Shown here in pieces: positions 18,370 to 32,026 of a stretch of 64,000 nt of DNA (position 1 is its first letter; each line of letters opens with the position of its first letter). This DNA is from Salisaeta longa DSM 21114. Lineage in GTDB: Bacteria; Bacteroidota; Rhodothermia; Rhodothermales; Salinibacteraceae. The notes under the pieces are model-generated. The model did not search any database, was not told the origin of the DNA, and saw only the letters and a program-made list of their open reading frames with translations. The DNA is taken from positions 1,758,005 to 1,822,004 of the forward strand of contig NZ_ATTH01000001.1 in assembly GCF_000419585.1 (NCBI RefSeq), read 5' to 3'. Position numbers and translations under genes: made by a program.

Positions 18370-19872
18370 TCAGTCCATCATCTTCCGCCGGAAGGCCGGC
18401 GTGTCAAGATCGTCTTTGCGGATGCGCTCCGTGCGCTCCTTCGCGTCGTCCGACCCCGGACGCAGCCGCTGAATGCGCGTGCTCGACGACGAGCCGTTGC
18501 TGGATGATTGCGCCGGCGTGTCGGGCGTTGTGTTGCGGGGCTGGCTCTCGCCGTCCGAGGGCGCACGACCCGATGACTCTTCATCGGTGGCGTCTGGCGT
18601 CCGCAACTTGCTCCGGCGCATATACGCCGGCTCGTCGAGGTTGCGCAGGTTGTCTTCGCCTTTGTACTGGTACTGCTGCTGCCCCCCATCCAACGGAACG
18701 GTGCGGCGCACGCGATCACCCGATGACTGTTGCCGGGGTTGCTGGGGTTGCTGCTGACGGCCCGGCTCAGGATTCTGCCCTGTAGGGGCTGATGGACCCG
18801 TAGCCGACTGCTGCGACGCAGGCTGTTGCGCTGCCTGCTGACGCGCGGGCTGCTGACGCGAGGGCTGCTGCCCATCCATCTCGTCGTGCTCTCCGCTGTC
18901 AAACCCGGTGGCGATAACCGTCACGCGCAGCTTGTCCTCTAGCGACTCGTCAATCACCGTACCAAAGATGACCTCAACGTCATCCCCGGCCTCTTCTTGA
19001 ATGATGGTCGTGGCGCGGGTGGCTTCGAGCATGCCCACCGACGGCCCACTCGTAACGTTGACGAGCACGTTCGTCGCTCCGTTGATCGAGAGGCCATCGA
19101 GCAGCGGGCTGCTGATTGCCTCAATCGCGGCTTTCTCGGCGCGGTCGTCGCCCGAAGCCGTCGACGATCCCATGAGGGCCGTTCCACCGTCCTTCATGGT
19201 GGTGCGTACATCCGCAAAGTCGAGGTTGATGAGCCCGTGCACCGTAATCAGGTCACTGATGCCGCGGGTGGCGTTGTACAGCACCTCGTCGGCCTTCTTA
19301 AAGGCCTCAATCATGCTTGTCTTCTCGTCAGAGATGTCGAGGAGCCGCTCGTTTGGAATGACGATGAGCGTGTCAACATTCTGCCGCAGCTTGGCGATGC
19401 CATCCATGGCCGTTCGCATGCGCCGACGCCCCTCGCACTGAAAGGGCTTGGTTACGATGGCCACCGTTAGGATGTCCATGCTACGCGCAATGGAAGCCAC
19501 GACCGGCGCGCCGCCGGTTCCGGTGCCACCGCCCATTCCAGCGGTGATGAACACCATGTCGAAGCCTTCGAGGGCTTGCTGGATCTCTTTCTTGTTTTCC
19601 TCGACGGCCTCCGCCCCTACGTTCGGACGAGCGCCGGCGCCGAGGCCCTTGGTCAGGTTTTTTCCCGCCTGCACCTTGTGCGGCGCACGGTTTTCCGCTA
19701 GCGCTTGCCCATCGGTGTTGATTGAGATGAACTCTACGCCGCCGCGAATGCCCTTGTCAACCATGTTGTTGATGGCGTTACCGCCGCCGCCCCCAACACC
19801 GATCACGCAGATTTTCGCTTCTTCGTTCGCATTGTCATCAAACGAGATGCGTGAACTATATTCATTTTCCAT
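18370..19872 (-). CDS. ftsZ: cell division protein FtsZ
   Basis: Tubulin-like GTPase forming the Z ring. The 500-residue protein has a short N-terminal tail, VIGVGGGGGNAINNM, the tubulin signature GGGTGTGG (about 114-121) and the T7 loop NLDFADVRTTM that completes the GTPase site of the next subunit. The globular core ends near 325 and is followed by an unusually long 160-residue linker rich in Gln, Ser, Pro and Arg. The C-terminal peptide DLDTPAFRRKMMD should bind FtsA and other membrane tethers. GGAGGG lies 8 nt before the ATG. Last gene of the minus-strand cluster, separated from ftsA by 358 bp, so it may have its own promoter. Confidence 0.97.
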   Translation of the reverse strand: MENEYSSRISFDDNANEEAKICVIGVGGGGGNAINNMVDKGIRGGVEFISINTDGQALAENRAPHKVQAGKNLTKGLGAGARPNVGAEAVEENKKEIQQALEGFDMVFITAGMGGGTGTGGAPVVASIARSMDILTVAIVTKPFQCEGRRRMRTAMDGIAKLRQNVDTLIVIPNERLLDISDEKTSMIEAFKKADEVLYNATRGISDLITVHGLINLDFADVRTTMKDGGTALMGSSTASGDDRAEKAAIEAISSPLLDGLSINGATNVLVNVTSGPSVGMLEATRATTIIQEEAGDDVEVIFGTVIDESLEDKLRVTVIATGFDSGEHDEMDGQQPSRQQPARQQAAQQPASQQSATGPSAPTGQNPEPGRQQQPQQPRQQSSGDRVRRTVPLDGGQQQYQYKGEDNLRNLDEPAYMRRSKLRTPDATDEESSGRAPSDGESQPRNTTPDTPAQSSSNGSSSSTRIQRLRPGSDDAKERTERIRKDDLDTPAFRRKMMD

Positions 19873-20230: not shown

Positions 20231-21493
20231 TCATAATTCATCAAACCACGCCTTCATACGACTCGCGATGCGGCTTACCACCGTCTCGCCGGGCGTCTCA
20301 AGGCCGCGCGCGTTCGACTCCACGTCTTCCGTGATGGTCGAGCTTCCAATAACTTCGGGCTGCATGCCGTACAACACAAGGCCCACCCCCGTGGCAAACT
20401 TCGGATTGCTTACTTCTTCTACAAGTCCGCCGCCAAGCCCCATGGGCATGCCAATGCGCGCATCCATCTCTAGCACCTCGGCCGCCAGTTCGGCCGTGCC
20501 CGGAATAAGTGCGCCGCCGCCCGTAACAACAGTTCCTACGCCCAGGTGCCGACCATAGCCGCTTCGCTTGATTTCGATCGCGGCAATTTCCAGAATTTCC
20601 TCCATGCGCGGCTGGATGACCTGCGCCAGGGTGTCGCGGCCGATGGTTTTCTCGGGGCGCCCGCCAATGCCTGGGATCTCAATTTGCTCGCCAGGATCGG
20701 CAAAGTCAACCAGGGCTGTTCCAAACTGCCGCTTGAGGCGCTCGGCCTGATCGCGCATCACGCCCAGGCCCTTCCGGATGTCGTCGGTGACTTTGTTGCC
20801 TGCTACGGCAATGACGGCGGTATGACGGATGGTGTTGTCCTCAAAAACGGCAATGTCGGTAGTGCCCCCGCCGATGTCGATGAGGGCCACGCCCACTTCT
20901 TTTTCGTCGTCGTGCAGCACGCTAAAGGATGAAGCCAGCGGCTCTAGCACGATGTCGGCCACCTCGAAGCCCGCTTTTTCGATGCAGCGATAAATGTTCT
21001 TCGCCGCCGACACGAGGCCCGTGATGATGTGCACGTTGGCCTCCAGGCGCACGCCGCTCATGCCAATGGGGTCGGCCACGCCGTCTTGCCCATCCACGAT
21101 AAACTCCTGCGGAATCACATGCAGGATCTCGCGGTCGGCCGGCATGGCCACGTGCATGGTATCTTCCAGCAGGCGCTGCACGTCGCTCTCCGTAATTTCG
21201 CCATTGCTAATCGTCACCACACCGCGGCTTTGAAAGCTCTGCACGTGATCGCCCGCAATGCCGACAATGACGCTGTGCACCTCAACCCCCGCGGCCCGCT
21301 CGGCCTCCTCGATGGCGGCGCGCACGGCGCGCACGGTACGGTCGATGTTTACCACAACGCCTCGGTTGAGGCCGTCGGACGGGGCCACGCCGACCCCAAG
21401 GATATTTACGCGCCCCAAGTCGTCTTTGCCGGCCACGACCGCGCATACCTTGGTCGTGCCAATGTCGACGCCTACAACAATCTGCTCACTCAT
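20231..21493 (-). CDS. ftsA: cell division protein FtsA
   Basis: Actin-like ATPase that anchors FtsZ filaments to the membrane. The 420 residues start VVGVDIGTTKVCAVV (phosphate-1), include the 1C-type insertion region typical of FtsA, the phosphate-2 segment IDIGGGTTDIAVF, and the adenosine motif VVTGGGALIPGTAELAAEVL. The C-terminus ends in an amphipathic helix (RIASRMKAWFDEL), the expected membrane-targeting sequence. The ATG at 21493 (MSEQIV) matches the family N-terminus. It follows ftsQ by 45 bp. Confidence 0.95.
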   Translation of the reverse strand: MSEQIVVGVDIGTTKVCAVVAGKDDLGRVNILGVGVAPSDGLNRGVVVNIDRTVRAVRAAIEEAERAAGVEVHSVIVGIAGDHVQSFQSRGVVTISNGEITESDVQRLLEDTMHVAMPADREILHVIPQEFIVDGQDGVADPIGMSGVRLEANVHIITGLVSAAKNIYRCIEKAGFEVADIVLEPLASSFSVLHDDEKEVGVALIDIGGGTTDIAVFEDNTIRHTAVIAVAGNKVTDDIRKGLGVMRDQAERLKRQFGTALVDFADPGEQIEIPGIGGRPEKTIGRDTLAQVIQPRMEEILEIAAIEIKRSGYGRHLGVGTVVTGGGALIPGTAELAAEVLEMDARIGMPMGLGGGLVEEVSNPKFATGVGLVLYGMQPEVIGSSTITEDVESNARGLETPGETVVSRIASRMKAWFDEL

Positions 21494-21538
21494 GAAGGTG
21501 TGTCGGGTTGTGGAGGTCCAGCGCCAGGCAGGCAACCC

Positions 21539-22335
21539 CTACCGCGGCGGCCGCGCCTGCGTGATGACTTGTCCGTTGAAGCGAAGGTCTACATACCCAA
21601 TGGTAGGGGACGCGGGCGGCGCTTGCAAGACCTGCGTCCAGAAGGAATACAAGCGCTTCATTTTTTGCCGGTACGGCGGGTCTCCTACCTGAATGGGGAT
21701 ACTGCCGTATGCCGCCACGGGTTGCGTGTACCCCCACAATCCCTCGTCGCGCACCACCAGCTCGGCCATCAGGGCCAGCGTGCCGGTGTCTGCCAGGGCA
21801 CGCAGCGCGCGCTGTACCGGCGCGGGCACCGCGGGGGGCGTGCCGTCGGTCGGTACGCCCCGAAGCAGCGGCACGTTGGGAACGGGGGCGGGCCGCAGCG
21901 GCAACGCCACACCGGAGGTATCGACGTAGAAGGCGGGTGTTCGGTCGGGGCCTAAGACCAACGCCACGGGCCGACGCTCCCGCACCACCAGCTCCAGCGC
22001 TTGGTCCGTAGGCTGCTTGTACACGGTTGCATCGCGCACCCACGGGTGCTGCTCGACGTAGCGCGCCGCCTGCGCCACATTCACGTCATGCAGCGGGGTG
22101 CGATGCGGCAGCCGCATCATCTGGCGCAGCGTGTCGGGGTGCGCGTAGCGCGCGCCCACCACCTCTATGCGCGTCACCACAAGGCTCGTTTGCCACCACC
22201 ACAGCCCGATGCTTAGCACAGCAACCGCTGCTATGGCAATGAGCCCTTGGCGGGTGCCAAACAGCAGGCGCGCACCCGCTTGCACGAGCTTCTTGAGAAG
22301 CGCCAGGACCTTCGCAAGCATGCGGAGCACATCCT

Positions 22336-22339
<4 letters not shown>
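21539..22339 (-). CDS. ftsQ: cell division protein FtsQ
   Basis: 266-residue bitopic divisome protein. A cytoplasmic basic N-terminus is followed by a membrane helix (about 33-48), then a POTRA domain (about 52-122: VVTRIEVVGARYAHPDTLRQ, ending with LELVVRERRPVALV) and the beta domain with YVDTSGVALPL. The last part SFWTQVLQAPPASPTIGYVDLRFNGQVI is the usual FtsQ end. The ATGA overlap with murC indicates coupled translation. Confidence 0.88.
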
Positions 22340-23762
<1,423 letters not shown>

Positions 23763-23766
<4 letters not shown>

Positions 23767-24887
23767 GCGTGGGGCGTGGGTGAGGAAGAATGAGCACGAG
23801 CGATGGAGCAGATGTCGCGGGCGATGACCGCTGCGGCCTCCGGACGGGCCAACTGCTGGGCGGCGCGCGTCATGGCGGCACGGGCCGAGGCATCGTCGAG
23901 CAGGGCGGTTACGGCCGCCACCAGCTCAGACGAGAGGCGGGGTTCGGGCAGCACGCGGGCGGCGCCTGCAGCGGCCATGCTCTCCGCATTTTTGGTCTGA
24001 TGATCGGCAACCACGTTGGGCGAGGGCACGAGCACGGCCGGCGTGCCCGTCACCAAAAGCTCGCTGCACGTGAGCGCCCCGGCCCGACAGAGCGCCACGT
24101 CGGTAGCGGCGTATGCGGCGTCCATCCGGTCGAGGTACGGCGCCATGCGCAGCCGCGGATGCGACGGGATGCGCGCGTGCAACGCTTCGTAGTAGCGGGT
24201 TCCGGTTTGCCACAGGATGTAGGTGTTGGGGCGGTCCAGCAATGCACCGAGCGACGCCTCAAGGGCATCGTTGAGGGCCGCGCTTCCGAGCGAGCCGCCG
24301 AGTACGGTGAGCAGCGTCGCGTCCTCGGGCATGCCAATGTGCGCCCGGCCCTCGGCCCGCGTGGTCTGCTGCAACTGCTGCCGCGTGGGGTTGCCCGTTA
24401 CGCGCACATCGGCTGTTGGAAAATACGCTTCTGCTTCCGGAAAAGCCACATGCACCCGCGTGCTCAGGTACCCAAGCAGCCGGTTGGTGACGCCGGGATA
24501 GGCATTTTGCTCTTGTACCACAATCGGACATCCCTGCAAGCGAGCCGCAAGTAGCACCGGGCCGGCCACGTAGCCGCCCGTTCCCACCACAACCGCCGGC
24601 TCCAGCGCGCGCACCAGCTTCCAACTGTCCCACAGCCCCTCCAGCAGACGCAGCGGAAACCGCAGGTTCTCGAGCGTCCACGCCCGTTGAAAGCCGCTCA
24701 CCGTAATGGGATGAAAGGCGTAGCCCGCCTTCGGAACGGCCGTCGCCTCCAGGCGATCGCGCGTCCCGGCAAATGCGACGTGCACGTGGGGTGCAGCCTG
24801 CGTGAGCGCATCGGCAATGGCGAGCGCCGGGTAGACGTGCCCCCCGGTGCCGCCGCCGGCCATAAGAATGCGAAGCGAAGGGTTCAT
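23763..24887 (-). CDS. murG: UDP-GlcNAc transferase MurG
   Basis: Transfers GlcNAc from UDP-GlcNAc to lipid I to give lipid II at the inner face of the membrane. The 374 residues contain the GGTGGHVYPALAIADAL N-terminal loop, QEQNAYPGVTNRLLG and the UDP-GlcNAc-binding C-terminal segment ALCRAGALTCSELLVTGTPA followed by DHQTKNAESM. GT-B fold, full length. Overlaps murC by 4 bp and follows ftsW by 3 bp. Confidence 0.97.
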
Positions 24888-24890
24888 AAG

Positions 24891-26129
24891 CTATATCATG
24901 CGGATGCGTCCACGGGAGCGGGAGGGGGCCGCTGATGATTTGTCGGGAGCGGCCGTGTTGGGGCGCGGCGATGTTTGCTGTGACGACTTGTGCCGTGAGA
25001 TGTTGAGCAGCACGCCCACCATAACCCCGTTCACCACCATCGACGTGCCGCCGTACGACACGAATGGCAGCGGCAAGCCGGTAACGGGCAGAAATCCGGT
25101 GGAGACGCCCGCATGCACAAAGCCGTACACCGCAATCATGGTGGTGAGGCCTACGGCCATGAAGACGCCGAGCGGATCGGGGGCGTCGCGTGCGATGCGC
25201 AGGTAGCCCCGGAACAGCAGAACACCAAAGCAAAACAGCAGGCCCAGCGCGCCCAGCGCGCCGTATTCTTCCGCAATGATCGCGAAGATGAAGTCGTTGT
25301 AGGGGGCCGGCAAGAAGTCACGTTGCACGCTCTTTCCCGGCCCCACGCCGGTGAGTCCGCCCATGGCAATGGCAATGCGCGCCTGATACGCCTGATAGCC
25401 CTCTCCGCGCAGGCTCATGGTCGCCGTAGAGTCGGTAGAGGCAAACAGGTCGGTCCCCAGGAACGATTCGACGCGCGCGGCCCGCGAGGGGGACGTATAC
25501 ACCATGCCGGCCGCAAGCCCAAGGCCCAGTAGGACCAAAATGCTTAGCTGCAGAATGCTCACGCGGCCCACGAAGCACATCACCAGCACAGAAAACAGCA
25601 CCACCGCCGATGTGGACAGGTCATCCAGGCCAATCAGCCCAATGGTAATACCGGCCCAAAACAGCAGCGGGAGAAAGGCACGACTGAAGTCTTTGATGTA
25701 CTCTTGCTTTTGCGCCAGCAGGCTTGCAAGGTAGATCACGAGCGTAATGCGAGCCAAATCGGACGGCTGAAACCCGAACCCTGCAATGTTGAGCCAGCGG
25801 TCGGGGCCGTCGGTGAACGCGCCGGTGATCTTCACAATGAGCAGCAGCCCAATGGAGAGGAGCAGGCCGTGCCGGCTGTAGCGGGCGACGGTGTGGTAAT
25901 CGATCCGGCTTACGATGCCCATGACGGCCAGGGCGATGCCCACACGCACCACGTGGCGTAACAAAAACGTTTCGGTGGGCATATTGAAGCGCGCCTCGGC
26001 AAAAAACGCCACCGCACTGTACACCGCCACCACGCCCACGACCGAAAGCCCAAGCACGACCCAGGGGACGTACTTGTCGGCCGGCGCCCGGGCCGAAAGC
26101 ATCGATTTGAGCGTAGATAACAGCTTCAT
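24891..26129 (-). CDS. ftsW: SEDS peptidoglycan polymerase FtsW
   Basis: Membrane glycosyltransferase polymerising lipid II at the septum. The 412 residues show about ten membrane helices. Conserved blocks include DGPDRWLNIAGFGFQPSDLARI, GEGYQAYQARIAIAMGGLTGVG and the C-terminal LPFVSYGGTSMVVNGVMVGV, all SEDS signatures. Location between murG and murD supports FtsW rather than RodA. The tail is basic and Ser-rich. Confidence 0.95.
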   Translation of the reverse strand: MKLLSTLKSMLSARAPADKYVPWVVLGLSVVGVVAVYSAVAFFAEARFNMPTETFLLRHVVRVGIALAVMGIVSRIDYHTVARYSRHGLLLSIGLLLIVKITGAFTDGPDRWLNIAGFGFQPSDLARITLVIYLASLLAQKQEYIKDFSRAFLPLLFWAGITIGLIGLDDLSTSAVVLFSVLVMCFVGRVSILQLSILVLLGLGLAAGMVYTSPSRAARVESFLGTDLFASTDSTATMSLRGEGYQAYQARIAIAMGGLTGVGPGKSVQRDFLPAPYNDFIFAIIAEEYGALGALGLLFCFGVLLFRGYLRIARDAPDPLGVFMAVGLTTMIAVYGFVHAGVSTGFLPVTGLPLPFVSYGGTSMVVNGVMVGVLLNISRHKSSQQTSPRPNTAAPDKSSAAPSRSRGRIRMI

Positions 26130-26141
26130 AGCGATTACAAC

Positions 26142-27521
26142 TTACAGCGCCCGGACGGACGCACGAAAATGCTGTCCGCGATCTTCGTAGTTTTCAAACA
26201 TATCGAACGAGGAGCAGGCCGGGCTGAGGAGTACCACGTCGCCGGGCTGGGCCAACGCCCGGCTGCGCCGCACGGCATCGTCCATCGAGGTGGCGTGCGC
26301 GCAGGCGTCGGCGTGCGCGCCGAGCTCCTCCTGAACCGTTGCCGCGCTCTCGCCCATCGCCACCACAGCCCGCACCCGATCGCGCACAAGCGGTTGCAAA
26401 CGTTCGTAAGCGTTCCCCTTGTCGCGGCCGCCGGCAATGAGCACGATGGGGCGCTCAAAGCTCTGCAGCGCATACCACACCGCTTCTACGTTGGTTGCCT
26501 TGGAATCGTTGACGTACTGCACGTCGCCCAGCGTGCGCACGAGCTCCAGGCGATGGCGGACGCCCTCAAACGTGGTGAGGCCCGCTCGCAGCGCCGCGGG
26601 CGACAGCCCCAGCGCGTAGCCCGCCAATCCCGCAGCCTGCGCATTGTACAGGTTGTGCGCGCCGCGCAGCGACACCTCGTCGGTTGGAAGCAGAGGCGTT
26701 TCCTGTCCCTCGTCGCGCACAATCAGCTGTCCGTCGGCGACAAACATGCCGGCGCCTCGGCGCTGCTCCTGACTAAACGCGAGTCGGCGTACGCCGTGGG
26801 CGTCGGCATGTGCCACGGCGGCAGGTCGAATGCGCGCATCGTCGTGATTGTACACGATGACGTCGCCCGCCGACTGCCGCGCAAAGAGGCGGAGCTTGGC
26901 CGCGGCATACGCATCGACGGAGCCATCGTAGCGATCGAGGTGGTCGGGGGTGATGTTAAGCAAAACGCTCACCGCCGGACGAAACGTGTCGACGTGATCC
27001 AGCTGGAAGCTTGACACCTCCAGAATCACGACGTCGCGTGCCCGCGCCGCCCGCGCATGGTCCGAGAACGGCGTGCCCACGTTGCCCGCCACGATGACCC
27101 GGCGGTCCGTGTTAGCAAACGCGGTGGCACACAAGTGGCCGGCGAGGTGGGTGGTGGTCGTCTTGCCGTTGGTGCCGGTGATGGCCACGATGGGTGCTTC
27201 GCAGAACCACGAGGCGACCTCAATCTCGGAATAGAGCGGAAGCCCGTGCGCCAGCACGGACTGCAGGAGCGGCGATTGCGTAGGCACGCCCGGGCTTGTG
27301 ACGACGAAATCGGCCTGGAGGGCGCGCTCGGTGTGGCCGTTGAACTCGTACGCGATGCCCGCGCCTGCGAGGCGCTGCGGCAGATCAGCGGCAGGAGCAC
27401 CGTGGTCGGTCAGAAATACGCGGGCCCCGGCGGCGGCAAGTAGCTCAGCCGCGGCCCGTCCGCTGCGCGCGCCCCCCACAACGGTTACAGCAGCATCGGT
27501 CACAGACGATGGGGCAGGCAT
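26142..27521 (-). CDS. murD: UDP-MurNAc-L-alanine--D-glutamate ligase
   Basis: Adds D-Glu to UDP-MurNAc-L-Ala. The 459 residues have a Rossmann N-terminal domain (VVGGARSGRAAAELL), the P-loop ITGTNGKTTTTHLAG (about 112), NITPDHLDRYDGSVDAYAAAK and the C-terminal VNDSKATNVEA and LIAGGRDKGNAYE, all diagnostic for MurD. This is the first gene of the visible cluster; upstream lies the repeat array instead of mraY or murF. Confidence 0.97.
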   Translation of the reverse strand: MPAPSSVTDAAVTVVGGARSGRAAAELLAAAGARVFLTDHGAPAADLPQRLAGAGIAYEFNGHTERALQADFVVTSPGVPTQSPLLQSVLAHGLPLYSEIEVASWFCEAPIVAITGTNGKTTTTHLAGHLCATAFANTDRRVIVAGNVGTPFSDHARAARARDVVILEVSSFQLDHVDTFRPAVSVLLNITPDHLDRYDGSVDAYAAAKLRLFARQSAGDVIVYNHDDARIRPAAVAHADAHGVRRLAFSQEQRRGAGMFVADGQLIVRDEGQETPLLPTDEVSLRGAHNLYNAQAAGLAGYALGLSPAALRAGLTTFEGVRHRLELVRTLGDVQYVNDSKATNVEAVWYALQSFERPIVLIAGGRDKGNAYERLQPLVRDRVRAVVAMGESAATVQEELGAHADACAHATSMDDAVRRSRALAQPGDVVLLSPACSSFDMFENYEDRGQHFRASVRAL

Positions 27522-28651
27522 ACACGAGCAGGGTAACGAGGGAGCAAATCAGTAGCAGTTGCAAGCGCGGCCCGCCGGTGCGTTCCTTGGCTGCGATCTC
27601 CCTGGACGGAGGAGGTCGCCCCATTGCGGAGTTTGCCCCTCCGGGATGACCTAAAGGCCTCACCACAGGCATGACCTAAAGGCTCCCACGCTCCCACTGG
27701 TCGCTCGCAATGACAACACGGGTTGATGGCAATAGTGCAGTGTCGATGGTTCAATCGGCTGTTCGGGCCGCTTTGCGCAACTGCACGCTCAACGTACGAC
27801 AAAGCGATCCTCTCCTTGTCATCGCGAGGACTGAGCGGAGTGAAGGACGTGGCGATCTCCATGTACGAACAAGAACGCTCGGTTGCGGAGATTGCCTTTT
27901 CGGGACGACCTGAAGGCCCTAATTTTTATTCGTTACGCTATTGCCAAACTGCGGAGATTGCCGCGCTCACTGCGTTCGCTCGCAATGACAACGTTGGTTG
28001 ATGGCAAGAACGATTCGTTAATGGTTCAGATGATCGTTCGGGCCCGGGTTGCTCTACTGCACGCTCAACGAACGACAAAGCAATCCGCTCCTTGTCATCG
28101 CGAGGAATGAGCGCAAGCGAATGACGTGGCGATCTCCATGTACGAACAAGAACGCTCGGTTGCGGAGATTGCCTTTTCGGGACGACCTGAAGGCCCCAAT
28201 TTTTACTCGTTACGCTATTGCCAAACTGCGGAGATTGCACCACAGGCATGACCTAAAGGCCCCCGCGCTCACTGCGTTCGCTCGCAATGACAACGTTGGT
28301 TGATGGCAAGAACGATTCGTTAATGGTTCAGATGATCGTTCGGGCCCGGGTTGCTCTACTGCACGCTCAACGAACGACAAAGCAATCCGCTCCTTGTCAT
28401 CGCGAGGACTGAACGAAGTGAAGGACGTGGCGATCTCCATGTACGGGCAGAAACGCCCTGTTGCGGAGATTGCCACACAAGACAACGCAATCCCCCGACC
28501 GGGTCAGTGTGAATGAGCGGGCTGGTCGGCGTCACGCGTCGGTGGCGTGTAGGCGGTGGCCATCTGGGTACTCGAAAAGGATTTCGCCGGTCGGGCCGAC
28601 GATGCATCCCCCTGTTCGCCTCGCGCTCCGCGGGGGTGTACCGAATAAGAC
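27522..28651. other. repeat-rich intergenic region upstream of murD
   Basis: 1.1 kb without a supportable gene. It contains the tandem repeat array described separately and, at both ends, short variants of the same sequence family (ATGACCTAAAGGCC at 27646-27683). A short minus-strand stretch (about 28532-28606) reads GPTGEILFEYPDGHRLHATD with codon-like bias before a stop; it may be a gene remnant but is too short to claim. Confidence 0.7.
27704..28475. repeat. tandem array of 275-302-bp REP-like units
   Basis: Three direct copies beginning with CTCGCAATGACAAC at 27704, 27979 and 28281 (spacing 275 and 302; the third is partial). 27961-28106 is identical to 28263-28408 (146 bp). 27846-27961 matches 28123-28238 with two mismatches. 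The 302-bp unit differs by an inserted segment, ACCACAGGCATGACCTAAAGGC, also present at 27662-27683. Each unit alternates TTGTCATCGCGAGG...GTGGCGATCTCC with its imperfect reverse complement GGAGATTGCC...CGCTCGCAATGACAA, so neighbouring arms (e.g. 27816-27860 and 27953-27991) can pair over about 40 bp. This sequence type resembles dispersed intergenic REP/MITE repeats known from several phyla (recognition by eye). Confidence 0.9.
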
Positions 28652-29296
28652 TCACCGGGTCGGCCCCATGCCGACGAAAAAGGCATCCGGCTCGGTGAGC
28701 GATCGGAAAAGAGCCTCTGCGATCGTGCGTCCGCCTTGGGCGTTCGGCTCAATCTGCAAGGTGAAGTCCGAGGGCTCGGTGCACACGCGCCGCAGGTCGA
28801 TAACGGGGCACTTATAATCGATCGCGGCCTGGATGGTGCGGTCGTTCCAAAGCCGAAGCGCCGTAGACACAATCGCCTGGCGTGGGCCCCTGCCCCCCGC
28901 CGCCTCGGGAAAATTCCCGTTGTACACGGCGCACACCGTCACCGGCAGGCCCGTGGCCACTACCTTCTGAAGAGCCGATCGGTAGGCTGCGTCAAACCGC
29001 TCCGTTGCCTCGTGCAGCACAGACAGCGCCTCCCCAACCGTGCGTGCCGACTGACTGAGAAGACCGATGTCCGTTACCGCATCATTGCCGCCAACACTGA
29101 GAACGATGTGGGTCGCTTCCGGGGGGCAGGTGTCCAGTTGATACGGGATGTCGCGGACCTTTGCACCGTCCACAGCCACGAGCGACGCCCGATGGGCTTC
29201 CGGAAGCAGATCATTCAGATGATCGGTGACGGACGGCGCACCGCTGGTGTATGCCTTGTTGTCGAGGGTGGAATCGCCGAGAAGTGCAATATGCAT
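28652..29296 (-). CDS. SGNH/GDSL-type hydrolase
   Basis: 214-residue predicted esterase-like protein without a signal peptide. Block I IALLGDSTLDN carries the nucleophile Ser near residue 9. Block III SVGGNDAVTD (oxyanion Asn) is present, as is the Gly region DGAKVRDI. The last block, usually D-x-x-H, reads SDFTLQIEPNAQGG here: the Asp is present, but the catalytic His is replaced by Glu or shifted. The protein may use another base or be a divergent subgroup. The start at 29296 puts GDS close to the N-terminus as usual. Its substrate is unknown. Confidence 0.78.
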   Translation of the reverse strand: MHIALLGDSTLDNKAYTSGAPSVTDHLNDLLPEAHRASLVAVDGAKVRDIPYQLDTCPPEATHIVLSVGGNDAVTDIGLLSQSARTVGEALSVLHEATERFDAAYRSALQKVVATGLPVTVCAVYNGNFPEAAGGRGPRQAIVSTALRLWNDRTIQAAIDYKCPVIDLRRVCTEPSDFTLQIEPNAQGGRTIAEALFRSLTEPDAFFVGMGPTR

Positions 29297-29366
29297 GGAT
29301 TGCGGGTGTTTGTGAGGATGACGGATGAATCGCGGCACTCACGATGAGGACAACGAGGTGCTCTCG

Positions 29367-29845: not shown

Positions 29846-31630
29846 TTACTGCACCACCGTCAGGCGCTGCGTGGTGGCCACGCCGTTGCCTGTCATCCGC
29901 AGCAGGTACAGCCCGCTGGCTAGCCCGCCAGTTTCCACCTGCACGCGCTGCGTCTGCTCCGCGGGCGGCGTGCCGCGGTACACCGTGCGTACCTTCTGCC
30001 CGAGCGTGTTGTAGAGCGTCACGGTCACCTCGCCCTTCTGCTTCACCGCAAACTCCACGGTGGCCTGTCGGCGCACCGGGTTCGGGTAGGCCGTGAGCGT
30101 AAACGCCCCGCGCAGCCCAATCTGCACCGTCACCGGGTCGGAGAACGACGCCGTGCCGTCGGTGTCCACCTGCCGGAGGCGGAAGGTGTGCGTGCCGGCG
30201 GTGAGCGCCTCGGTGCGGAAGCGGTAGGTCTGCGGCGCTGTGGTCGTGCCGGCGCCCTCTACGAAGGCCACCTGCTCGAAGGTGCCGCTCGGCGTCTTGC
30301 GCTGCACGGCAAAGCCGGCGTTGTTCGTCTCGCTGGCCGTCTGCCACGACAGCACCGCCTCCTGACCGTCTGCTTCGGCCGTGAAGCTGCTCAGCTCTAC
30401 CGGAAGGGTGTTGTATTGTGTGCTCGATCCGATGGCAAACTGCGAGAAGCTGCTCACCGATGCGCACAAATCAGATCCATCGACGGTGGTGTTGAGCGGT
30501 TGCCACGACTCGCTCGCAAACGTCCGGGTAAGCAGCACTAGTTTCTGAATGTCAGCAACGCCCGGCACGCCGCTCGCGTCGAAACAAACCGCGGCCTGAA
30601 AACCCGACAGCTGGTCGCCAACGTTGAGAATCGTGTAGTACTGATCGTCCCACAGCACATCCGGCTGAATGGACGTCCCATCGCCTGAGGTGGCCGTTTG
30701 CGTAGCGAACGTGCGGTTGTACGGCGGCTGGTTGTACGTAGCAATGGCCAGCGTGCCGCCCGCGCTACTTCCGGCGGTAAAGGTAACCGAGACCCGGTTG
30801 TCGCTGGCCATAGGCCCGGTAGCCCCCGCCGCCACCGGCGCTTCAAAGAAATCGTCCGACGCGGCCACAAACGACACAACATAGGTGCCGTCGCCCTGCC
30901 CCTCAAGCGTCGCCACGGTAAACCCAAGCGAGGGACTGATAAACTCGTAATCAGTGGTCGGAAACACCGTACCATTTACGCGGCGGACGCGCATCACCTC
31001 GTACGTGCCGGCGGGCGTACGGATCGTCCCATAGCCTTCCACTTCTCCAGAGATCGCCACTGCCCCTCCATTGGTTTCATCGCTCCAGGTCGTTGGCGAG
31101 GGGCTGTACCGAAGCGGCGTCTTGTACTGCAAGAGCGGCGGATCGAAGGGATTGGAAAACTGTCCGCTGGATGTCACGAATACACCGCCGTAGCTGTTGT
31201 CGCCAGCGTCTGGCCCCGACGTCTTGATGTCGTGGTACGAATACACCGTGCCGGAGGCTTGCCCGCTCGGATCCTCCAGGATGAGAGCAAACGCGTGCGG
31301 GGCCTGCGAGAAATAGGAGTCGTTGGCGCCCAGCCATCCAAGCGCCTGCGCCTCGGCGATCGTTCGGTAACGAATGATACCTTGTCCCTGCAAGTCGTAC
31401 AGGAGCGCGCGCAAATCGTACGTTGCATTGGCTCCGGTAGCATCAAGGGCGGCCTGCAAATCGGGGGTCGTCGTGGGATCAAGCGCCGACGTCACAAACA
31501 CCTGCGCCGCATCGTTTGTCCCAATCAAATTCAGCAGGTCCTGGGACGTAATTTCAGTAACTTGCCCTTGCGCGGGCTGCATAAGCAGCGTTAAAGCGGC
31601 AAAGCATCCAAGGAGTATTCGTTGAAGCAT
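29846..31630 (-). CDS. secreted protein with T9SS type A sorting domain
   Basis: 594-residue exported protein. The signal peptide MLQRILLGCFAALTLLMQPA is followed by an unrecognised N-terminal region (about 25-430). A fibronectin-III-like segment follows (LPVELSSFTAEADGQEAVLS, about 435-520; NNAGFAVQRK is the usual motif). A Por secretion C-terminal domain (about 525-594) starts FTLTAYPNPVRRQATVEF and contains VTLYNTLGQKVRTVY and LASGLYLLRM. T9SS moves such proteins across the outer membrane and usually anchors or releases them. The ATG at 31630 is fixed by the signal peptide. Divergent from the siderophore receptor. Confidence 0.9.
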   Translation of the reverse strand: MLQRILLGCFAALTLLMQPAQGQVTEITSQDLLNLIGTNDAAQVFVTSALDPTTTPDLQAALDATGANATYDLRALLYDLQGQGIIRYRTIAEAQALGWLGANDSYFSQAPHAFALILEDPSGQASGTVYSYHDIKTSGPDAGDNSYGGVFVTSSGQFSNPFDPPLLQYKTPLRYSPSPTTWSDETNGGAVAISGEVEGYGTIRTPAGTYEVMRVRRVNGTVFPTTDYEFISPSLGFTVATLEGQGDGTYVVSFVAASDDFFEAPVAAGATGPMASDNRVSVTFTAGSSAGGTLAIATYNQPPYNRTFATQTATSGDGTSIQPDVLWDDQYYTILNVGDQLSGFQAAVCFDASGVPGVADIQKLVLLTRTFASESWQPLNTTVDGSDLCASVSSFSQFAIGSSTQYNTLPVELSSFTAEADGQEAVLSWQTASETNNAGFAVQRKTPSGTFEQVAFVEGAGTTTAPQTYRFRTEALTAGTHTFRLRQVDTDGTASFSDPVTVQIGLRGAFTLTAYPNPVRRQATVEFAVKQKGEVTVTLYNTLGQKVRTVYRGTPPAEQTQRVQVETGGLASGLYLLRMTGNGVATTQRLTVVQ

Positions 31631-32026
31631 GGTTTTGTCCGGTTTTGTGGCGTGCGTTCGCAGATGGCAAAACATCCGATAAGATGACAAGGCGGCTGAT
31701 ACTTAAAGTAGCGCCACTTCCCCGTTACACCGGTCATCTTGGGCTTATCTTTTTGTCTCCAGCGCTTGCCCGCCTCCCGCAACGCCCGCACAAGATCCGG
31801 GCATTCATGCAACATTGACGCGCAAACGCCGGACGCGCCCTTGCAACTCCTTGCCCTGGCGCTTAGCGTTACATTGCTATCTGTAAGCAGTCTAAATAAG
31901 GGAAAAGTTGTGGCGCAGCAGCGCACCGTGCGCGGCCCCGCCCCGCACGTAAAGCGTGTGTACGAATGCCCTCGGCTGCTCGCAGCACGCCGTACTCACT
32001 TTGACGCAACACGGACCAACGACTTG
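31631..32026. other. divergent promoter region before siderophore receptor
   Basis: 396 bp between a T9SS protein gene and a TonB receptor gene. It carries the motif at 31889-31900 that recurs before the second receptor. The receptor frame stays open upstream to 31739, but that extension lacks a signal peptide. Confidence 0.55.
31889..31900 (+). promoter_or_regulatory. motif shared by the two iron/heme operons
   Basis: AGTCTAAATAAG, 127 bp before the receptor ATG. The same 12-mer recurs at 36925-36936 before the second TonB receptor, and each copy is preceded by GCTATCT. It could be a -10 region or an iron-regulator site; it is AT-rich in GC-rich surroundings. Confidence 0.4.

Follow-up and report, generated by a model that had tools for sequence, protein, structure and literature searches.

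Sections of a study of the Neisseriaceae (PMC9395523) describe a dcw cluster that is split into sub-clusters with their internal order kept, and in one group with mraZ missing; rod-shaped and multicellular species both carry a split dcw there, and cell shape is seemingly unaffected by the fragmentation. For Cyanobacteria and other phyla, parts of a second study (PMC8871954) report that genes of an ancient dcw cluster were lost or relocated, with synteny persisting within sub-clusters. A fragmented dcw with loss of mraZ is already described elsewhere, and the genome of Salisaeta longa DSM 21114 adds a new case, with cut points of its own. It shares ordered sub-clusters and a missing mraZ with the Neisseriaceae as those sections present them (PMC9395523), but it belongs to a different phylum, its cuts lie at ftsI/murE and mraY/murD, and a repeat array stands at one of the ends. 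Whereas the dispersal treated in those parts of PMC8871954 marks whole phyla, here it concerns one genome in a family whose cluster is otherwise whole where fetched. A literature search returned no paper on the dcw cluster in this group (Salinibacter relatives). For the array, the closest described elements are REPs and REPINs, characterized in parts of three reports (PMC3116915, PMC2817692, PMC3733652) by many copies, palindromic mini-hairpins with compensatory changes, inverted pairs around a spacer and alternating arrays; the CGTC-tagged REPs described in part of PMC3733652 carry a CGTC or TGTC tag and then a hairpin, its stem of 8-9 bp beginning with AT and its loop 4-5 nt long.

The window, that is the whole 64,000-nt stretch analysed (C1:1758005-1822004, on contig C1 of a 3.4-Mb genome in 3 contigs), contains seven genes on the minus strand, from position 27521 to 18370, in the conserved dcw order murD-ftsW-murG-murC-ftsQ-ftsA-ftsZ as recognised by NCBIfam models. 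These genes and what now lies upstream of them are listed below by window position.

28652..29338, minus strand: GDSL/SGNH-type hydrolase, now upstream of murD (PF13472, 38.2 bits, cut-off 32.9)
27522..28651, no strand: gap of 1.13 kb from murD to the next upstream gene, the derived junction
26142..27521 (C1:1784146-1785525), minus strand: murD, which opens the third dcw block (TIGR01087, 410.8 bits, cut-off 211.95)
24891..26129, minus strand: ftsW (best match TIGR02614, 299.2 bits, below the cut-off of 337.5; the gene at the same place in relatives matches)
23763..24887, minus strand: murG (TIGR01133, 283.2 bits, cut-off 250.25)
22336..23766, minus strand: murC (TIGR01082, 520.5 bits, cut-off 335.1)
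21539..22339, minus strand: ftsQ (by weak FtsQ matches, 27.4 bits with a cut-off of 353, by position, and by 30-41% identity to the relatives' gene)
20231..21535, minus strand: ftsA (TIGR01174, 434.1 bits, cut-off 175.85)
18370..19872, minus strand: ftsZ, last gene of the block (TIGR00065, 409.6 bits, cut-off 295.2)

The gap is bounded by the start codon of murD (27521, minus strand) and by the neighbouring gene, also on the minus strand, whose stop is at 28652. Homologues of the hydrolase occur in 5 of the 26 family relatives; its label 'SGNH', like 'FAD oxidoreductase' below, was assigned by eye or custom and goes beyond the Pfam names. Further upstream, the protein encoded at window 29846-31690 carries a sorting domain for type IX secretion (TIGR04183).

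The dcw genes on C1 form three distant blocks, mraW-ftsL-ftsI, murE-mraY and murD-ftsZ.

C1:67883-69370, plus strand: murE, directly before mraY
C1:69386-70543, plus strand: mraY, directly after murE
C1:723262-726775 (about 723-727 kb), minus strand: mraW-ftsL-ftsI block
C1 1776-1785.5 kb, minus strand: murD-ftsZ block

The continuous run of a complete dcw cluster, mraZ-mraW-ftsL-ftsI-murE-mraY leading into murD-ftsZ, was not found. The gene called ftsL is the one in the ftsL position, which gave no Pfam match and has a counterpart in 18 loci of relatives. One Pfam search gave no PF02381 match for mraZ anywhere in the genome, the same profile scoring 105 bits on the MraZ of a relative, and a MraZ query against part of the genome yielded at best a chance-level match (E = 0.1). 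mraZ is present in 15 of the 17 relatives whose contig extends that far; two loci (L042 and L043, from G005 and G023) have no mraZ before mraW in clusters that are otherwise intact. Six Mur-ligase matches were obtained in the genome, namely murC, murD, murE and candidates for murF, mpl and folC, the best murF candidate lying at about C1:328.4-330.0 kb (TIGR01143, 254.6 bits, below the cut-off of 288.6).

Cluster DNA was taken from 18 of the 26 relatives in the family set. In all 18, mraY stands directly before murD (spacing 40-222 nt by alignment ends) and ftsI ahead of murE, the evidence for both adjacencies coming from two contigs each in G001 and G025. The order murD-ftsW-murG-murC is likewise found in 18 of 18 and continues through ftsZ in 16, the other two ending at contig ends. 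According to PF08245 matches, murE and murD share a contig, about 2.6-3.3 kb apart, in 21 of the 26 relatives; the remaining five are G001 and G025, interrupted by contig ends, and G009, G018 and G020 (56-83% complete), which gave no murE-murD pair. A wider set comprised 80 loci, 74 of them with at least 900 nt before murD, and in 72 of these 74 the mraY match ends less than 2.5 kb before murD, mostly within 150 nt (exceptions, L147 and L153). Since mraY precedes murD throughout the 18 family relatives and in nearly all of these wider loci, comparison of gene order indicates that the dcw split is derived, and both cuts are limited to this genome within the family set, where no other genome carries its genus label.

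Much of what an earlier note had read from the window alone is upheld by these comparisons: the gap it delimited is exactly the interval from the murD start to the hydrolase stop, the order and identities it gave for the seven genes agree with NCBIfam (ftsW and ftsQ below cut-off), and the break in the ancestral cluster that it placed at murD is common to none of the 18 relatives, so that the synteny comparison it called for finds the break unique to this genome in the family set. The upstream half that it reported as absent was located elsewhere on C1, in two pieces instead of one and with mraZ not found. It had also counted murF among the missing genes; murF does not belong to the break, because murE is followed by mraY in the relatives (18 of 18) and the murF candidate sits apart.

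The new neighbours of the displaced blocks were then compared with those in relatives. A convergent M1-peptidase gene lies 47 bp beyond the end of mraY, and the interval contains no repeat; murE begins about 100 bp past its neighbour gene, and ftsI ends 77 bp from a DUF1684 gene. The M1 peptidase has the same 5' neighbour in 11 of the 13 M1 loci compared (the contig ends there in L067), and its 3' neighbour in L056, L057 and L062 is another gene, not mraY; the kept 5' and differing 3' neighbour indicate that mraY/M1 is a new joint. A single reciprocal inversion would place this relatives'-type 3' neighbour, an FAD oxidoreductase by eye, near the upstream genes of the window; searching for it returned two weak matches in the genome, neither near the window and the better one at 28% identity with a stop. 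When the M1 and SGNH neighbourhoods of the relatives were compared with the window, no synteny was found beyond those genes, with one weak 34% match, and the only sequence common to the joints consisted of 14-nt matches (E = 0.06). An IS605-type TnpB gene (L034:11242-12426, C1:61241-62425) lies 5.5 kb before murE, near the joint and not at it.

The repeats that had been noticed behind murD are real: TRF reports 27701-28474 with a period of 302 bp x 2.7 and a score of 1053, the top of five arrays in the window, and they belong to a dispersed family, with the core GTCATYGCGAG present in 189 exact copies in the genome versus 3 for the reversed control. The array is composed as follows (window positions).

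about 27593..28480, no strand: array of three REPIN-like elements in near-identical adjacent stretches (TRF; repeat families D1-D5)
27704..27828: first element copy, a spacer between the inverted cores CTCGCAATGAC (27704) and GTCATCGCGAG (27818)
27979..28104: second element copy, with its minus core at 27979 and its plus core at 28094
28281..28406: third element copy, with its minus core at 28281 and its plus core at 28396

Inside the array, two pairs of stretches reach 97% identity over 123 nt and 99% over 153 nt, and copies of at least 200 nt elsewhere in the genome show 68-82% identity to it (40 of 75 candidate regions scored), which indicates that the array grew in place. The duplication is not brand new, since an alignment of the whole adjacent units 27817-28093 and 28094-28395 matches in no more than 270 of its 303 columns, gaps counted. 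No Rfam match was obtained for the array at E <= 1. As DNA, its stretches gave z values of 0.8, -1.3 and -2.3 versus shuffles, no clear folding excess, and the 241-nt unit folded as RNA gave a z of -2.8.

In each element a spacer of about 103 nt separates two arms in inverted orientation, and each arm has a mini-hairpin that covaries. The arrangement of arm, spacer and inverted arm recurs in 46 non-identical copies with 101-105 nt between cores, the spacing of a REPIN, most of the stretches behind this count having been picked by likeness to the array. Among 103 parsed arms the 2-bp mini-stem is kept in 83, versus a mean of 29 and a maximum of 42 for shuffled pairing (1000 shuffles), the pairs being AC/GT (38), CC/GG (24), GC/GC (16) and others (5); these are the compensatory changes of a REP/REPIN hairpin, in copies that are related and counts that are therefore not independent. 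The other 22 of the 125 cores were left unparsed; many of these belong to a shorter kind of arm, and two or more are probably there by chance. Many element arms (L004, L005, L007, L009, L013, L016, L018 and L026) also contain, nested or inserted, another short motif (GGCCTTTAGGTCAT, GGGGCCGAAGGTCAT or GGGCCTTGGTCATGCCACTGGTG), which resembles a smaller repeat riding on the element.

In copy number, covarying mini-hairpins, inverted pairs and alternating array copies the element is like the REPs and REPINs of the cited portions (PMC3116915, PMC2817692, PMC3733652), and it has their character of a high-copy dispersed palindrome, with extragenic placing checked for the window array alone. It differs in its conserved spacer of about 103 nt and in that no RAYT was found. 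Its arms are about 45 nt long, compared with 20-40 bp for REPs as given in part of PMC3733652, and they start with TTGTCAT and carry the covarying stem further in, the CGTC-tagged REPs being compared here by their description (PMC3733652, in part). The only Y1-transposase match in the genome is weak (PF01797, 24 bits, cut-off 23), and no core lies within its 3.2-kb locus, so the arrangement of a RAYT flanked by REPs was not found; a diverged RAYT could escape the PF01797 profile search. The element is built like a REPIN and is only a putative member of a RAYT-mobilised family. A text search of the literature for the sequence of the repeat found no paper.

Within the family set, expansion of the element was seen only in this genome. 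The core occurs 0-14 times in each of the 26 relatives and the reversed controls 0-7 times; since a control reaches 7 (in G010), relatives with few cores are at chance level, whereas seven relatives with 9-14 cores exceed their own controls, which indicates that the core motif is older than this genome. G002 and G007 carry core pairs that run the other way, plus before minus and mostly at 88-92 nt, where those of this genome are minus then plus and 113-115 nt apart; the G002 and G007 pairs are perhaps an ancestral palindrome of simpler form. A contig titled Schekmanbacteria (L137:13036-13113) has two 11-base cores 67 nt apart, a pair that hints at a spread of the arm motif across phyla.

We consider it likely that ordinary large chromosomal rearrangements were the agent that cut an ancestral run mraZ-mraW-ftsL-ftsI-murE-mraY-murD-...-ftsZ at ftsI/murE and mraY/murD, that mraZ was lost or has changed beyond recognition, and that the REPIN-like array is a later build-up and not the crossover site. 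The array before murD would be a local duplication of the genome-wide palindromic element, which most likely entered this intergenic space once the break had exposed it, and each block would now need its own promoter. The number of events was explored with an exhaustive inversion model using the blocks murE-mraY (+), mraW-ftsL-ftsI (-) and murD-ftsZ (-), with cuts allowed in the spaces between blocks. Healed states numbered 0 of 105 after one inversion, 0 of 6826 after two and 72 of 369565 after three, two being insufficient because of the block orientations; in this simple model the split needs at least three inversions, or fewer together with a presumed transposition of murE-mraY. Inversions symmetric about the origin or terminus are common. 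Sampled GC skew is positive to about 0.8 Mb and, after a mixed stretch at 0.82-0.96 Mb, is negative as far as 2.40 Mb; at 2.42-2.9 Mb it is mixed or weak. The midpoint between the mraY and murD ends is at 0.928 Mb, in the stretch where the skew changes sign, so that one end lies on each side of it, and both lie on the leading strand suggested by the skew; this is the placing expected of an origin/terminus-symmetric inversion and is only suggestive. The mraW-ftsL-ftsI block lies on the strand opposite to the skew-suggested leading one.

A different question is why the array persists, and it is unlikely that selection has kept it as a promoter or insulator of the murD block. murD no longer has an upstream operon and is preceded by a 1.1-kb stretch alone, which favours such a role; against it, a sigma-70-type scan of 27300-28800 gave no sigma-70-like site, terminator-like sites in the same interval numbered two versus a shuffle mean of 1.4, and the roughly 70 nt between the murD start and the array could hold a promoter by themselves.

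The earlier note had suggested that the cluster was split by recombination between dispersed repeats. Homologous recombination between copies of the element, one of them at mraY/murD, could draw on the array at the murD end and on dozens of possible partner sites (the 189 cores, forming at least 51 clusters among the listed positions), and both the expansion of the element and the break are restricted to this genome in the family set. The broken ends argue against it. An element copy is present at one of the five ends, that of murD, whose start is 183 nt from a core; no copy was found within 1.5 kb outward of murE-5', mraY-3', ftsI-3' or mraW-5' by exact core or short-word BLAST, which gave one match of 13-17 nt at each of three of these ends. 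The nearest listed exact cores are 8.0 kb from mraY, 10.5 kb from murE, 29.9 kb from ftsI and 33.4 kb from mraW, the C1 stretches 50-90 kb and 705-745 kb having been scanned in full. The missing genes thus lie far away with no repeat copy in their flanks, the outcome that the note itself had named as speaking against its proposal, and the inverted copies at both joints that a repeat-mediated inversion would leave were not seen, the murD joint alone having a copy. With ends placed uniformly, a listed core cluster would lie within 100 to 300 nt of one of the five in about 4% to 7% of cases, a chance that is higher if breaks are confined to intergenic DNA, so that the co-location of array and murD is mildly unusual. 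The array's near-identical stretches suggest growth in place, and copies elsewhere are just 68-82% alike to it; sequences this diverged are poor RecA recombination substrates. Moreover, the top-scoring other array among the regions scored (C1:2133717-2134569, 73% over 909 nt) has the same orientation, and a crossover between it and the murD array would delete or duplicate rather than invert. With an element at only one of five ends, the repeats probably did not cause the split, and recombination between them is a rather improbable explanation.

Repeats at the partner ends may have vanished after the event, and the confinement of both element expansion and break to this genome makes a loose causal link between them possible. 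In its strongest form, a burst of the element would have made the chromosome prone to rearrangement, so that a near-immovable dcw was cut at least twice, with the murD element as surviving scar and operon control region and with the loss of mraZ removing a common regulator; we regard this as quite doubtful. An assembly artefact, with contigs misjoined via repeats, is very improbable: short-read assembly can fail on arrays of about 0.9 kb, and one of the joints is inside such an array, but the other joints (mraY/M1, murE-5', ftsI-3') carry no element, an error in the murD link would not restore murD behind mraY, and the assembly, in 3 contigs, is 98.51% complete with 0.4% contamination. Horizontal gain of the murE-mraY pair with loss of the original is scarcely credible, for although the two genes form an island flanked on either side by new neighbours, MraY shares 80% identity with the protein of G003, a member of the family, MurE is 54-63% identical to its relatives, close to the 50-61% of MurD, which was not moved alone, and no second MurE is among the six Mur-ligase matches.

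Taking ordinary rearrangement followed by array growth as the preferred reading, an abundant REPIN-like element without a recognisable RAYT stands as a separate lead. For the dcw cluster, the three-way split, in a family whose other fetched members have it whole, shows which sub-blocks survive, namely mraW-ftsL-ftsI, murE-mraY and murD to ftsZ, and the genome offers a natural test of the need to co-transcribe the full dcw set.
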